A stretch of 6,356 nucleotides of DNA, from the NCBI GenBank assembly GCA_015486015.1, contig WFSL01000039.1:1-6356 (forward strand), read 5' to 3'. Shown here one piece after another: positions 668 to 6,356 of the stretch (its first letter is position 1; every line of letters starts with the position of its first letter). Origin of the DNA: Aquificota bacterium. GTDB taxonomy: Bacteria > Thermosulfidibacterota > Thermosulfidibacteria > Thermosulfidibacterales > B14-G1. The notes under the pieces were generated by a model. That model was not told where the DNA came from. It worked only from the letters and a program-made list of their open reading frames with translations, and made no database searches. Made by a program: the position numbers and the translations under genes.

Positions 668-988
668 TCAGATTCTTGCTTTTTCACGACTTGTGCGGTG
701 ATCTTTGGCCTTCCACTGCTCGAACGCTCTTATCACATGGCCCAAGCTCCTTCTGGAAAAGATCAGTGGGATGCCATCCCTCTTGGCTTCTTTCTTCAAC
801 GCATTAAGGGTGTTGTGATTCAGGTAGTCGCCCAGGACAAGGATAAGTTCCACTCTCTTGGGTATCCCTTTCCTCCTTTCTTCAGATGCCTTCCTACCCG
901 ACACGTGATAGATCTCCCCAACACCTCTTTTTTGAAGCTCTTTCCTTATGCTCTCTATGTAGTCTGCACCAATGACAAGTACGCTCAT
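668..988 (-). CDS. DUF2325 domain protein, 106 aa
   Basis: This is a small soluble protein that I recognise by sequence style as a single-domain DUF2325 protein. It starts with a beta strand MSVLVIGAD, followed by a helix. IYHVSGRK (27-33), ELILVLGDYLNHNTL (47-61) and a basic helix precede GIPLIFSRRS (72-81). The alternating beta/alpha pattern suggests a Rossmann-like fold. The DYLNHN stretch matches the family's D-x-x-x-H-x pattern. The biochemical function is not established to my knowledge. The ATG at 986-988 is preceded by GGGAGGT (994-1000) at good spacing. The promoter region carries a GTTAG-N6-CTAAC palindrome (1033-1048) shared with the dtxR promoter, so the gene probably belongs to the same metal-responsive regulon. 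It lies 171 bp downstream of the porin gene on the same strand. There are no cysteines, so a Cys-based metal site is unlikely. Confidence 0.85.
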   Translation of the reverse strand: MSVLVIGADYIESIRKELQKRGVGEIYHVSGRKASEERRKGIPKRVELILVLGDYLNHNTLNALKKEAKRDGIPLIFSRRSLGHVIRAFEQWKAKDHRTSREKARI

Positions 989-1020: not shown

Positions 1021-1048
1021 TTTATAATGAAAGTTAGATTAAACTAAC
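1021..1048 (-). promoter_or_regulatory. Promoter of the DUF2325 gene with a DtxR-type operator
   Basis: The plus strand at 1033-1048 reads GTTAGATTAAACTAAC, a palindrome with two mismatched positions. On the minus strand it is followed by a -10-like TTATAAA (1021-1027), about 33 nt before the ATG at 988. No good -35 hexamer is visible. The palindrome would occupy the -35/spacer region, typical of a repressor or activator site. The half-sites GTTAG and CTAAC match the palindrome over the dtxR promoter (5706-5721). Confidence 0.6.
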
Positions 1049-1086
1049 TCCCGCTCCAAAAATAACCCCTTATCCTTGTTTTTAAT

Positions 1087-1117
1087 GGTGGGGGATGGGA
1101 CCTACCCCACCCCCACC
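1087..1117 (-). terminator. GC-rich hairpin after the porin gene
   Basis: GGTGGGGG at 1087-1094 pairs perfectly with CCCCCACC at 1110-1117. A second inner helix of about 4 bp lies across a 1-nt bulge, with a 6-nt loop. It sits about 40 nt past the porin stop and probably ends or stabilises the feo-porin mRNA. On the minus strand it is followed by ATTAAAAAC, not a U-tract, so it is not a canonical intrinsic terminator. Confidence 0.45.
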
Positions 1118-1158
1118 ACGACCAGAGGTAGGAGGGTTTGTTACGGGCTTGACCTTGG

Positions 1159-2601
1159 TCACCTGGGGTGATGTAAGCTGTGCTTTGTGAAGTTCACCTG
1201 CATCCTGGTACCCACTACCCATATTGTATCTGCGTCATCATTACAATTGGGATTCCAGACCACCTGTAAGTCGGGACTGAATTCCAGCTTGCCATCGAAG
1301 AAAGAGAGCTTGTAGTAAGTTTCTAAGTGGTACTCATTTTCCATATCCACATCTTCGGGATGATCATAGTAGTCACCATAAAAGGCATCAGTTCTATAGA
1401 GTCTTTCAGCGTCGTCGTTGACTACAACCCCACCAAAGGCCACGGCAAAGACGTCGTTCTCCCTACCCCAGTAACCGCCCTCTATTTGAAAGCCCAAGCT
1501 GTAGGCCCCCCTCATAGGCACTGTATCCAAGGATTCATCATGCTTCGATCCCATCACCACGTCATCGTCCATAATGCCACCCCTGGCAAAGAGAGTGATG
1601 CCTTTGTGAATCTTCTGATCAAAAGAGAAGCCCGCGCCCCAGTTGGTCTTGTCGTCATCTACATCTGACCAGTCCTTCTTCCCTTTGCCCACGTCTTCCA
1701 GGTCGTCCACATCCAAGTGATCCTTGGCATTAACCCAGGCATAGAAGCGGTAATTGCCGGGGAGGCCCATAAGTGTCGGCTTAAAGTCCAGCTCAAAGAT
1801 GCCAAATCCGTCGTCGAAGATATCTTCCCAATCGGCGTCAGCCTCGGCAGCGCCAGCGCTTATGTCCAGCCATCCTGTAGGACTCCATGTAACCCTTGCG
1901 CCTAAGCCATTGTCATCGGGCCACTCTACAGCCAAATTGTTGACAAAACCTGAAGAAAGGAACATCTCCGTTTCGTCATTGGCTACCTCGTTGCAATCGA
2001 AATAGTTGGTCAGATCCACCTTGCCCAGGGTGAAGGTGAAAGTGCCAAATTTGCCTAAGGGGACCTCTTGCTCGTACCAGGCCTCCGTTACCTCGGCGTT
2101 GGTATTACCCGGGGCATCATCGTTGAAGCCTGAAACGGTAGGCGCCTCTTCATCTACCCCATTACCATTGCCACCTTCTATAAGCATATATGCCAATCCC
2201 TTGTCCCAGATTTGGTCTGCGATCTCCAGATCGTAAGAGAAGGTAGCATCCTGGACATCACCTTCGTCGTGTTCCTCGTTGTTATTGTCATCGTTATTGA
2301 TGGTGCCCTGGCCTACAAAGGTAGCGTCAGCCTTGATGGATATGCCACCCAGGGCCTTTTGCAGCCCCTCTAACCTTGACTTGGCCTCTTTCAATTCCTC
2401 AGTCTCATGAGTAAGCTCCTTCTGCTTCTCTTCGTATTGCTTCACCTTCTGCTCCAAGGCATCCACCTTCTGCTTCAACTGCTGGATAGTCTGGATGAGT
2501 TGTTGGAGCTGGGCATTGCTAATGGTAGTTCCTGCACCTGCCAATCCATTTCCAAGGGCGAATACAAACACCATCAGCCATATGAATGCTCTCCTTGCCA
2601 T
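1159..2601 (-). CDS. OprB-like outer-membrane porin with N-terminal coiled coil, 480 aa
   Basis: This is predicted to be an outer-membrane beta-barrel channel. The start at 2599-2601 gives a clear signal peptide: MARR, a hydrophobic core to about residue 20, and cleavage near AGAG at 21-24. Residues 27-84 are a heptad-rich coiled coil (QLIQTIQQLKQKVDALEQKV). The rest alternates aromatic and hydrophobic strands. It contains DLTNYFDCNEVANDET (196-211) with VNNLAVEWPDDN downstream, and a C-terminal FSPDLQVVWNP strand, as in OprB/carbohydrate-selective porins. Predicted loops are very acidic (NNDDNNNEEHDEGD at 102-115; DVDDLEDV; DVDDD), which could attract cations. A nine-residue tail TKHSLHHPR follows the usual terminal Phe. 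The gene lies 93 bp downstream of feoB, with a dtxR-like palindrome in the gap, so a role in Fe(II) entry is inferred. The true substrate is unknown. An upstream GTG in frame at 2688 is rejected as the start. Confidence 0.85.
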   Translation of the reverse strand: MARRAFIWLMVFVFALGNGLAGAGTTISNAQLQQLIQTIQQLKQKVDALEQKVKQYEEKQKELTHETEELKEAKSRLEGLQKALGGISIKADATFVGQGTINNDDNNNEEHDEGDVQDATFSYDLEIADQIWDKGLAYMLIEGGNGNGVDEEAPTVSGFNDDAPGNTNAEVTEAWYEQEVPLGKFGTFTFTLGKVDLTNYFDCNEVANDETEMFLSSGFVNNLAVEWPDDNGLGARVTWSPTGWLDISAGAAEADADWEDIFDDGFGIFELDFKPTLMGLPGNYRFYAWVNAKDHLDVDDLEDVGKGKKDWSDVDDDKTNWGAGFSFDQKIHKGITLFARGGIMDDDVVMGSKHDESLDTVPMRGAYSLGFQIEGGYWGRENDVFAVAFGGVVVNDDAERLYRTDAFYGDYYDHPEDVDMENEYHLETYYKLSFFDGKLEFSPDLQVVWNPNCNDDADTIWVVGTRMQVNFTKHSLHHPR

Positions 2602-2608
2602 TTCTCTA

Positions 2609-2615
2609 CCCCCCC
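2609..2615 (-). promoter_or_regulatory. Poly-G ribosome-binding region of the porin
   Basis: The minus strand has seven consecutive G residues followed by TAGAGAA and the ATG at 2601. It is the only G-rich stretch at Shine-Dalgarno distance, so the homopolymer itself appears to serve as the ribosome-binding site. Confidence 0.45.
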
Positions 2616-2620
2616 ATAAT

Positions 2621-2640
2621 TTGTTAAGTAAGGCTAACAA
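2621..2640. promoter_or_regulatory. DtxR-type operator upstream of the porin
   Basis: The sequence TTGTTAAGTAAGGCTAACAA has half-sites TTGTTA and TAACAA. Its 16-bp core GTTAAGTAAGGCTAAC (2623-2638) fits GTTAR-N6-CTAAC. It lies between feoB and the porin start, 20 bp upstream of the ATG. This suggests the porin has its own metal-controlled promoter inside the feo cluster. No convincing -35/-10 pair is visible. Confidence 0.55.
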
Positions 2641-2651
2641 TTTGCGCAAAT
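2640..2651. promoter_or_regulatory. Perfect 12-bp palindrome next to the porin operator
   Basis: ATTTGCGCAAAT is a perfect palindrome that shares its first base with the end of the 20-bp operator. It could be a binding site for a second regulator of the porin, or chance. No other copy was noticed in the window. Confidence 0.3.
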
Positions 2652-2694
2652 AATTCCTTCTAAGGCTATCACCCCCTTTCTCGGCCACTCCAGA

Positions 2695-4737
2695 TTAACC
2701 CAGACCCAGGAGTCTACCTCCCTGATAAACGAGGACTGACAACACCCAGCCCAGTACCAGGCTATACCCCACCGCAAATCCTGTCCATTTCCACGAGTTG
2801 GTTTCCCTCTTGATTATGCCGATAGAGGCGATGCAGGGGATATAGATAAGGGTCATGACCATGAAGGCGTAGGCGGTGAGGGGCGTGAAATGCTGGGCAA
2901 TCACGGCCCCCAGCTTTTCCTCTTGGGTGTGATAAAGGGTGCCAAGCGTTCCCACCACCACCTCCTTGGCCAGAACGCCAAAGAACAGGGCCACAGCTGC
3001 TTGCCAAAAACCAAAACCTGCCGGCTTCATAATAGGCGCCAGGATTGTCCCCAGTCTTCCAATGAAGGTCTGTTGGCTTGCATACGGTACACCTGTAGGT
3101 AGATGGGCCAGGAACCAAACCAGCACCACAGCTGCAAAGATGATGGTACCTGCTTTTTTTATAAAGATGGCACTCCTTTGCCAGGCCAGCAAAAAGACGC
3201 CCTTCCATGTAGGCAAGCGATATGGCGGCAGTTCCATAACCAAGGGGGCTGGTTCCCCTTTGAAGAATAGGCTTTTGAACACTCGAGCCAGTATAATGGC
3301 CAGCACAACCCCCAACATATATAAAGAGAAGATGATCGTTCCTTGGTGGTGGGCAAAAAGCGCCCCGGCAAAGAGTATATAAACAGGCAGTCTTGCAGAG
3401 CAGGACATGAGTGGATTCACTAAAATAGTGAGAATTCTGTCCTTTTCGTTCTCCATGGTCCTGGTAGCCATGATTCCTGGGATGTTGCACCCAAAACCCA
3501 GGACCATAGGAATGAAGGATTTGCCATGAAGCCCTATGGCGTGCATAAACCGGTCCATCACAAACGCCCCTCGTGCCATGTATCCAGAGTCTTCCAACAC
3601 GGCAATGGCCAGAAAGAGGATAAAGATGTTGGGGAAGAAGACCAGCACAGAGCCTACACCTCCGATGATGCCGTCGGAGACGAGAGAAGCCAACCATGCA
3701 GGGCCATGTGCACTGGCAATTAGAGCCGCTACATGCTCCCCTAAGTATCCAAAGACTCCATCTATGAGATCGGCTATGGGCCCACCGACGTTAAAGGTAA
3801 GCTTGAATGTGATCCACATGAGCACCAGGAATATGGGAATCCCCAAAAACCTGTTGGTAATAACCCTGTCTATCTTGTCAGAAACGGAGAGCCTCTCTGC
3901 CCAGTCCCACTTCCTCTTAGCAAATCTGCTTACCAGCCCCTTGAGATACCCATATCTCCTCTCCACCAGTGCCGTTTCCAGGTCGTATCTTATCTCACTC
4001 TCCAGTTTGTCCCTAAGTGTGGTAAGGCGAGCCAGGATTTCCCCTCCTGATGGGTTCCCTTCCCCCAACCGGCCCAAGTACTCCTGGTCCCCTTCTAAAA
4101 GCTTTATGGCCAACCATCTCGTAGGATACATCTGGGAAAAGGCCTTGTCCCTCTTAATAGCCTCTTCCAGCTCATTGATGGCCTCCTCCACCGACTCACT
4201 GTATTTTAGAGGACATGGTGGGGGGGGCTCCCTTCTGGCTATCTCCATGGCCAGTACACTCTTGAGTCTCTCTATGCCGATGCCCTTGTTAGCCACTGTG
4301 GGGACAATAGGTACCCCCAGGGCCTGGGAGAGGCCACCTGTATCTATCTCCAGCCCTTTGGTTCGGGCTTGATCCATCATGTTGCATACGAGGACCAAGC
4401 GGCTCACACCCAATTCCATGAGCTGAAGCGGTAAGTAGAGGTTCCTCTCTAAGTTAGAAGCATCTAACACTACAGCCACTAATAAAGGCCTCTCCTTCAG
4501 CAAAAAGTCTCTGGCAATCCGCTCGTCAATAGAATTAGCTGTGAGGCTGTAAATACCAGGCAGATCCACGACTGTCACTTCTGTGTCTCCCAGCTTTGCC
4601 TTCCCCTCTTTTCTCTCCACCGTCACCCCTGGCCAGTTACCCACCTTTTGCCTTGCCCCTGTAAGGGCATTGAAAACAGTGGTCTTACCAGAATTGGGAT
4701 TCCCAGCCAGGGCGATAACCACTTCACTGTCCCTCAT
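2695..4737 (-). CDS. feoB: Ferrous iron transporter FeoB, 680 aa
   Basis: FeoB is the inner-membrane Fe(II) transporter with a cytosolic G domain. The G domain shows G1 GNPNSGKT (12-19), a G2 region [10 protein letters not shown] (32-41), G3 DLPG (58-61) and G4 NMMD (119-122). A helical linker of about residues 180-290 follows. The membrane part (from about 295) contains the two Gate regions, with [19 protein letters not shown] (416-434) and [13 protein letters not shown] (441-453), and later [16 protein letters not shown]. Cysteines at 417, 446 (Gate motif) and 635 (YIPCIAS) are candidates for the pore. The length is slightly below the usual 700-770, with no C-terminal FeoC-like extension. 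The Shine-Dalgarno AGGAGG overlaps the last codons of feoA, indicating coupling. Oddities are a run of eight C in codons 171-173 and a dtxR-like palindrome over codons 90-95. Confidence 0.97.
4453..4468. promoter_or_regulatory. Intragenic GTTAGA-N4-TCTAAC palindrome in feoB
   Basis: GTTAGAAGCATCTAAC has exactly the same two 6-bp arms and 4-bp spacing as the palindrome over the dtxR promoter (5706-5721). It overlaps codons for V-L-D-A-S-N, a stretch well conserved in FeoB, so protein constraint could produce it. A regulatory role is inferred only from the sequence match. Confidence 0.35.
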
Positions 4738-4742
4738 CCCCT

Positions 4743-4979
4743 TTACCTCCTTCCGATGCCGTTGTTGGAAACAATGATCTTAAAGGCCATTCCACGACCA
4801 ATCCCTACCCTGCAACCCTTGACACTTAAGATGACAGGGCCACCACTGGCCAATATCACTTCAACCTCCTCGCCCGGATAGAGTCCCATGGCTTCCAAGC
4901 GCCTCCTGACACCTATACCTCCAATGACATCCCTCACCACCACCTTCTCTCCGGGTTTGCACAGCGCCAAGGGCCACAT
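4743..4979 (-). CDS. feoA: FeoA, small SH3-like partner of FeoB, 78 aa
   Basis: FeoA is a small cytosolic SH3-like protein needed for Fe(II) uptake by FeoB. The sequence fits the family across its length: [15 protein letters not shown], then [18 protein letters not shown] (26-43), [25 protein letters not shown] at the end. The typical FeoA core 'RL..MGL.PG..v.v' is present. The start ATG lies only 3 nt after the stop of the DtxR gene, and feoB begins 5 nt after its own stop, so the three genes are almost certainly one transcript. The GGAGGTGGAG upstream of its start overlaps the end of the regulator gene. The last two codons plus stop (AGG AGG TAA) double as the Shine-Dalgarno of feoB. Confidence 0.95.
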
Positions 4980-4982
4980 ACT

Positions 4983-5690
4983 TCACTCCACCTCCACTTC
5001 CACTAACTTAGCCTCCTCCTTCCTCAAAGAAAGGTGAAACCCTTTTAGCTTAAAGTCAACGGGGTCCCCCAAAGGTGCTACCTTCTCCACTTCCAACTCT
5101 GTTCCAGGAACCAATCCCATGACCAGTATTCTTTTTTTTAATGATGGATCCCCCTTTACCGCCCTAACCACAGCCTTTTCCCCGACTTTCAACTGATCTA
5201 AAGTTTTCACCTTTTCACCTCCTCTCTCACCTCCAACACATGGAGGTGGCTCACCCGTTTCTGCATACTTCTTGAAGTGGGATAGCCACTTAGGATCCCG
5301 CTCCTTGTTGGGGAAGCTCTCCACAAATTCCACGAATTTCACCAATCTCTCCAAGGTATTTGGACTGATGTAGTGTTCTATGTTGCATGCATCTCGTTCG
5401 GCGGTCTGGACCTCTACCCCTAAGATCCTATAAAGAAACCTGAAGAGGGTCTGATGCCTATGGTAAACCGCCTGGGCGATTGCCATACCTTTTGGGGTAA
5501 GTTCCAAATAACCGTAATACTCATGATGCACCAAACCCTTATCTACCAGTGCCTTCACAGCAGCCACCACACTAGGCTTTTTCACTCCCAAGTGATCTGC
5601 CACCTCCTTCACCCTTGCCTTGCCCTTTTCCAGGCTCAAGACCAGGATAGCCTCTAAATAATCCTCCGCACTATGGGAGAGAGTCTCCAT
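4983..5690 (-). CDS. DtxR/IdeR-family metal-dependent regulator with C-terminal FeoA domain, 235 aa
   Basis: Predicted Fe(II)- or Mn(II)-responsive DNA-binding regulator. Domain order: winged helix (about 1-70; SAEDYLEAIL, VKEVADHLGVKKPSVVAAVKAL), dimerisation/metal domain (about 71-150), and a FeoA/SH3-like domain (about 162-233). Against DtxR from memory, H79, C102, E105 and H106 are all present in register (YHRHQ; ACNIEH). Asp10 takes the place of DtxR Met10, as in MntR Asp8. Ancillary-site residues E83 and H98 of DtxR are replaced by F83 and E98. C102 at the primary site favours iron over the Glu of MntR, but the selectivity is inferred. The ATG at 5690 is chosen because AGGAGG (5698-5703) lies 7 nt upstream and the family start motif follows. 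An upstream in-frame TTG (5723) lies in the operator. It leads the feoA-feoB cluster and probably represses itself. Confidence 0.93.
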   Translation of the reverse strand: METLSHSAEDYLEAILVLSLEKGKARVKEVADHLGVKKPSVVAAVKALVDKGLVHHEYYGYLELTPKGMAIAQAVYHRHQTLFRFLYRILGVEVQTAERDACNIEHYISPNTLERLVKFVEFVESFPNKERDPKWLSHFKKYAETGEPPPCVGGERGGEKVKTLDQLKVGEKAVVRAVKGDPSLKKRILVMGLVPGTELEVEKVAPLGDPVDFKLKGFHLSLRKEEAKLVEVEVE

Positions 5691-5692
5691 CT

Positions 5693-5742
5693 CCCTTCCT
5701 CCTTTGTTAGACATATCTAACAAAGGAGGAAGGGGTTGTCAA
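5693..5742 (-). promoter_or_regulatory. dtxR-feoAB promoter with operator and 19-bp-arm inverted repeat
   Basis: The minus strand has a perfect -35 TTGACA (5737-5742). At 17 bp a -10-like TAGATA (5714-5719) lies within a GTTAGACATATCTAAC palindrome (5706-5721). The symmetry continues outwards: arms 5693-5711 and 5716-5734 are perfect 19-bp inverted repeats around CATA. The left arm contains the Shine-Dalgarno AGGAGG of the regulator gene. A repressor on the palindrome would block the -10, giving autoregulation. A start near 5707 would leave only the SD-bearing arm in the mRNA; a start further upstream would place the SD in a hairpin. Confidence 0.7.

Positions 5743-6252: not shown

Positions 6253-6356
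<104 letters not shown>

Follow-up and report, generated by a model that had tools for sequence, protein, structure and literature searches.

A palindrome of the type GTTAR-N6-YTAAC, four copies of which surround and punctuate a dtxR-feoA-feoB operon, is very likely the operator of the DtxR-type regulator encoded in that operon, with one dimer unit per predicted site. Taking all parts together, we consider it highly probable that a DtxR-FeoA protein uses this single-dimer operator for repression under metal-replete conditions and that the copy located within feoB provides a second layer of repression. Three observations make the assignment to the DtxR-type protein very likely: the genome-wide restriction of the motif to one metal-related gene set, its conservation at dtxR in the four family genomes, and its occurrence as sole genome copy upstream of dtxR in three distant genomes. 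The same assignment had been proposed in the earlier note and is strongly supported by the sequence evidence.

The palindrome is restricted to one set of genes

The window, i.e. the whole stretch of 6,356 nucleotides that was analysed, contains four matches to GTTAR-N6-YTAAC, as compared to about 0.01 expected, and none of 200 dinucleotide-preserving shuffles reached four. The coordinates of these palindromes in the earlier note are all exact, and their placement in the DUF2325 promoter, upstream of the porin gene, inside feoB and on the -10 element of dtxR stands as well (Table 1). Towards one end of the contig the window also carries four tRNA genes (positions 196-527), and the first part of a 16S rRNA gene (6253-6356) lies at the opposite end.

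Table 1. Genes, putative operators and predicted promoter in the window
Feature	Position	Strand	Remarks
DUF2325 protein	668..988	-	PF10087
Operator upstream of DUF2325	1033..1048	-	45 bp before DUF2325 ATG
OprB-type porin	1159..2605	-	ATG 2605; PF04966, E 1.7e-34
Operator 5' of porin	2623..2638	-	variant GTTAG...TTAAC; 18 bp upstream of porin ATG
feoB, ferrous iron transporter	2695..4737	-	PF02421, PF07670, PF07664, PF17910
Intragenic feoB operator	4453..4468	-	269 bp past start codon; GTG-TTA-GAT-GCT-TCT-AAC
feoA	4743..4979	-	PF04023
dtxR	4983..5690	-	235 aa; ATG 5690; PF01325, PF02742, PF04023; MntR/IdeR/DtxR structures
Operator of dtxR-feoA-feoB operon	5706..5721	-	core GTTAGATATGTCTAAC; conserved in G000-G003
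Predicted dtxR promoter	5714..5742	-	-35 TTGACA 5742-5737, 17-bp spacer, -10 TAGATA 5719-5714 within operator

A pattern search of the assembly (1.62 Mb in 43 contigs, about 97% complete) gave six matches in total, the four in the window and two on contig C43 that are separated by 90 bp; the reversed control pattern had four matches in the same genome. If the six sites were distributed at random, the chance of four landing in a 6.4-kb window would be about 3e-9. Five sites correspond exactly to GTTAG-N6-CTAAC, the site at 2623 carrying a single A for G (GTTAA...CTAAC). Allowing one mismatch to GTTAG-N6-CTAAC added just three sites in the genome (contigs C13, C14 and C26), which we set aside as background: two fall inside open reading frames (ORFs) that seem to have nothing to do with iron, and the last sits at the margin of an ORF for which no iron link is apparent either. 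These genome-wide counts come from the pattern search; scoring with a position weight matrix, trained on the same sites that it scored, covered the loci of the four family genomes, where the real sites reached at least 19.7 and no other score was above 16. The real site set is clearly separated from background. Motif counts in genomes of unrelated phyla were mostly at or below control and are uninformative.

All six sites are found at dtxR-feoAB, the OprB porin gene, the DUF2325 gene and a DUF3793-DUF2325 locus, the last of these on C43, where the sites precede a DUF3793 gene that is followed by a DUF2325 paralogue with 77% identity to the DUF2325 protein of the window. The scan of the genome and its relatives proposed in the earlier note has thus yielded six genomic sites, all at one gene set, and a conserved site at dtxR. 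The term "local metal regulon" used there describes the sites in the window but is too narrow, given the DUF3793-DUF2325 locus on C43 and a flavodoxin gene in a congener (see below). Directly upstream of the C43 operators are fragments of Cas1 (profile positions 186-282) and IstB (L007:4178-4720 and 4722-5003), apparently remnants.

We infer that the DUF and porin genes are linked to iron. At 26 of 30 DUF3793 loci in Desulfuromonadia the best Fur-box-like match falls within one and the same short interval immediately 5' of the domain, these loci being homologous and non-independent, and DUF3793 looks like a general low-iron protein. DUF3793 genes are present in 65 of 117 genomes sampled from the class of L119, usually with a Fur-box-like palindrome shortly upstream (L139-L168). 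The porin shows weak similarity, below the cut-off, to the iron-uptake porin model NF033921, and in Geobacter sulfurreducens an OprB porin is encoded beside feoAB under a predicted Fur box (PMC545781).

Conservation of the sites in related genomes

The dtxR-promoter site and the feoB-internal site are kept in all four family genomes that have this operon (G000-G003). Besides these two sites the congener G001 has a perfect one between feoB and the porin gene, and G002 has one upstream of DUF3793-DUF2325; the sites of G003 are those at dtxR and within feoB. Among the four family genomes the porin site is present in G000 and G001 and was not found in G002 and G003. Downstream of the G001 porin gene lies a flavodoxin-like gene (L093:5362-5811; named by sequence, with no profile scan), just upstream of which a weaker operator, GTTAGACATAGCCAAC, is located (L093:5321-5336). 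Flavodoxin is a typical gene of the low-iron response.

In G006, G007 and G008, which belong to the same order and encode the regulator elsewhere, a site is located directly upstream of feoA-feoA-feoB, and no site was found at their dtxR genes. G006 has an additional site at a second feoAB, and two operator copies 19 bp apart (L102:3258 and 3277) lie upstream of this second operon. The regulator gene of G005, the product of which is 69-71% identical, departs from the pattern in that no site was found near it; this absence, like those at the dtxR genes of G006-G008 and at the porin in G002 and G003, counts against the proposed regulation. Further exact matches in relatives (G002 C56, G001 C36 and G006 C65, C75, C77 and C166) have a GTTAA half on one or both sides.

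Three genomes of distant Deltaproteobacteria/Desulfuromonadaceae (L117, L119 and L120; 2.6-3.6 Mb) contain a single GTTAG-N6-CTAAC each, and this sole copy is located shortly upstream of a dtxR homologue encoding a 57-60% identical protein. We regard this single-copy result as the strongest test of the predicted operator assignment. When further orthologues were sought across the whole class of L119, the search returned only the two genomes already in the set, besides more distant paralogues; the orthologous subfamily therefore appears to be rare in this class.

A probable operator copy within feoB

The internal site lies 263-272 bp past the feoB start in the four genomes, the start of G003 feoB being taken as the first aligned codon for this distance. 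Its codons are GTG TTA GAT xxx TCT AAC in all four genomes, corresponding to the peptide V-L-D-x-S-N. One and the same codon is kept in all four genomes at only 16% of the 427 conserved residues other than Met and Trp, and among 668 six-codon windows this one alone has at least five of six third positions identical in the four genomes. TTA accounts for 9% of the Leu codons, and of 68 conserved Leu columns only that of the site has TTA throughout.

The palindrome might be a by-product of the FeoB peptide V-L-D-A-S-N and have no regulatory role, as this peptide is a conserved FeoB motif, the site lies entirely within coding sequence, and other feoB genes have a partial match at the conserved peptide L-G-x-P-I (L101 and L102). 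We consider this explanation unlikely, since the feoB homologues of L117 and L119 encode VLDASN as CTG/CTC-GAC-GCT/GCC-TCC-AAC, with no palindrome, and since the rare TTA and TCT are fixed in the four genomes while the spacer residue changes (Ala, Ala, Val, Ser). The fixed codons around a varying spacer residue, together with homologues that encode the same peptide and lack the site, strongly support the conclusion that selection acts on the feoB-internal site as DNA. Weak scores within the G007 feoB gene and within the second feoB of G006 were rejected as coding coincidences, the conserved L-G-x-P-I peptide being located there.

Selection on synonymous codons may thus keep an operator in the feoB gene of the regulator's own operon as a second brake that is independent of the promoter, acting by an elongation roadblock or a loop of ~1.25 kb; we see the chances for and against this proposal as evenly balanced. 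The distance between the promoter site and the feoB site is 1253-1260 bp, which is too variable to favour looping over a roadblock by helical phasing.

Promoter architecture and long palindromes

The arrangement of the dtxR promoter, with the operator over the -10 element and TTGACA-N17-TAG, is the same in G001, G002 and G003 despite differing spacer sequence, and the whole arrangement recurs at the first C43 site. In L117, L119 and L120 the operator directly follows a TTGAC...TATAAT-like promoter, and a weaker second site is located 58-63 bp upstream. Both predicted layouts, operator over the -10 element and operator directly after the promoter, are of the repressor type.

The core of the dtxR operator is embedded in a perfect palindrome with 19-nt arms (window 5693-5734) and the first C43 operator, that of DUF3793, in one with 21-nt arms (L007:5054-5099). 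That 18 kb contain no further long inverted repeat with perfect arms, and that the right arm at dtxR includes the AGGAGG of the gene, would fit RNA hairpins masking the Shine-Dalgarno sequence of dtxR. Such a role is improbable, because the predicted transcript start falls in the right arm, so that transcripts from the predicted promoter would lack the left arm; moreover, the arms are imperfect in G001-G003, and at the other sites palindromy barely extends beyond the core. One conceivable origin of the long palindromes around the putative operators is that a quasi-palindrome was corrected by template switching.

The regulator and its predicted operator unit

The regulator consists of a DtxR winged helix domain (PF01325, E 6.5e-13), a metal-binding and dimerisation domain (PF02742, E 3.3e-19) and a C-terminal FeoA domain, and the relatives of solved structure that are nearest to it in sequence are MntR and, lower down, IdeR and DtxR. 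The metal ligands D10, E13, H79, C102, E105 and H106 are invariant in the four genomes and include the DtxR/MntR family positions 10, 79, 102, 105 and 106. The protein resembles PgMntR of Porphyromonas gingivalis, a DtxR family member with C-terminal FeoA domain(s) and a hybrid Asp/Cys/Glu/His metal site; it accepts Mn(II) as well as Fe(II), and a manganese transporter is linked to it (PMC4805248). PgMntR, however, has two FeoA domains and the manganese transporter as target, whereas the regulator encoded in the window has one FeoA domain and feoAB as predicted target. The context, namely the feoAB operon, the flavodoxin-like gene of G001 and the Fur-box-like sites at DUF3793, favours Fe(II) as the metal, although this is not certain because PgMntR, which has the same hybrid metal site, binds both metals.

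In L117 (5992-6714), L119 (1796-2511) and L120 (2539-3233) dtxR (163-164 aa) is an ORF of its own next to a feoA-like ORF. The junction between these ORFs matches the DtxR/FeoA junction in the fused protein of G000-G003, which suggests that the fusion may have arisen from adjacent genes.

According to the earlier note, the half-site spacing of the palindrome is not that of the Corynebacterium DtxR box. This is wrong, as the TTAG-N6-CTAA spacing is the same and it is the number of units that differs: the 19-bp box TTAGGTTAGSCTAACCTAA comprises TTAG-N6-CTAA twice, overlapping with an offset of 5 bp, whereas no second overlapping unit, and hence no full 19-bp box, was found at any of the six sites, five of which have TTAG and CTAA at the 6-bp spacing. 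Each IdeR dimer contacts repeats 1 and 3 or repeats 2 and 4, and one dimer on one unit suffices for binding (PMC8464063). The actinobacterial IdeR/DtxR iron box, with the single-dimer half site TTAGGNNNNCCTAA for IdeR of Saccharopolyspora erythraea, has the same TTAG/CTAA spacing and a regulator of the same winged-helix family (PMC8464063, PMC5784534). The palindrome differs from it in offering each site a single dimer unit and in its conserved outer G/C (GTTAG/CTAAC). A metal-dependent repressor with an operator over the -10 element is likewise known for IdeR/DtxR (PMC8464063, PMC5784534) and is predicted here. Gln43 of IdeR contacts the first C of CCTAA, whereas the regulator encoded in the window has Ala43, the equivalence being taken from equal alignment coordinates under the assumption of colinear numbering, and the base is not conserved; the data are consistent with a correlation between the two.

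That the sites are bound by another regulator, for instance the Fur-family protein encoded on contig C4, would accord with the one Fur-family gene of G000 and with the usual Fur control of deltaproteobacterial iron genes (PMC545781), but is most improbable, as the palindrome is unlike the deltaproteobacterial Fur box WTGAAAATNATTTTCAW (PMC545781), equals one unit of the DtxR/IdeR box, tracks the dtxR gene and occurs as a single copy at dtxR in three distant genomes.

Discussion

For the DtxR-type regulator we infer binding, metal, direction of regulation and the mode of action of the internal site as follows. When enough metal, most likely Fe(II), is available, the metal-loaded dimer would occupy the palindrome, each GTTAG half being contacted by one winged helix. 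Bound at the dtxR-feoA-feoB promoter, the dimer would cover the -10 element and turn off its own operon, and at the porin, DUF2325 and DUF3793-DUF2325 genes it would act at or just upstream of the gene start. On the feoB copy it would form the second repression layer, either halting RNA polymerase that has passed the promoter block or forming a loop with the promoter operator at a distance of ~1.25 kb. Under iron scarcity the dimer would leave the DNA and the uptake genes would be expressed.

As the probable operator of a DtxR-type iron regulon, the palindrome is of a known kind, and the conserved intragenic operator is the unusual feature. The predicted regulon resembles the Fur regulons of Geobacter, Desulfuromonas and Desulfovibrio, where feoAB, an OprB-family porin, flavodoxin and small unknown genes are under predicted iron control (PMC545781); there, however, the regulator is Fur with its own box, whereas the window has a DtxR-type regulator and a different operator. 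Where DtxR sites lie beyond the start point, roadblocking has been considered as a mechanism (PMC5784534). Metalloregulator sites in coding sequence are likewise found in Bacillus subtilis, where intragenic Zur boxes are cis-repressive and a roadblock has been proposed (PMC4324032), but those sites are scattered and their role was left open, whereas the site described here is shared by several genomes and falls within a gene of the regulator's own operon, that of the transporter.

The predicted operator is thus assigned to a DtxR-type regulator outside the groups in which such operators are best known, and the one-dimer motif can be searched for with almost no background. DUF3793, DUF2325 and the OprB porin would be tied to iron control. 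Synonymous-codon selection exposes a probable operator in a metal transporter gene, and, if this second brake exists, dtxR-feoA and feoB would differ in the strength of their response to iron.
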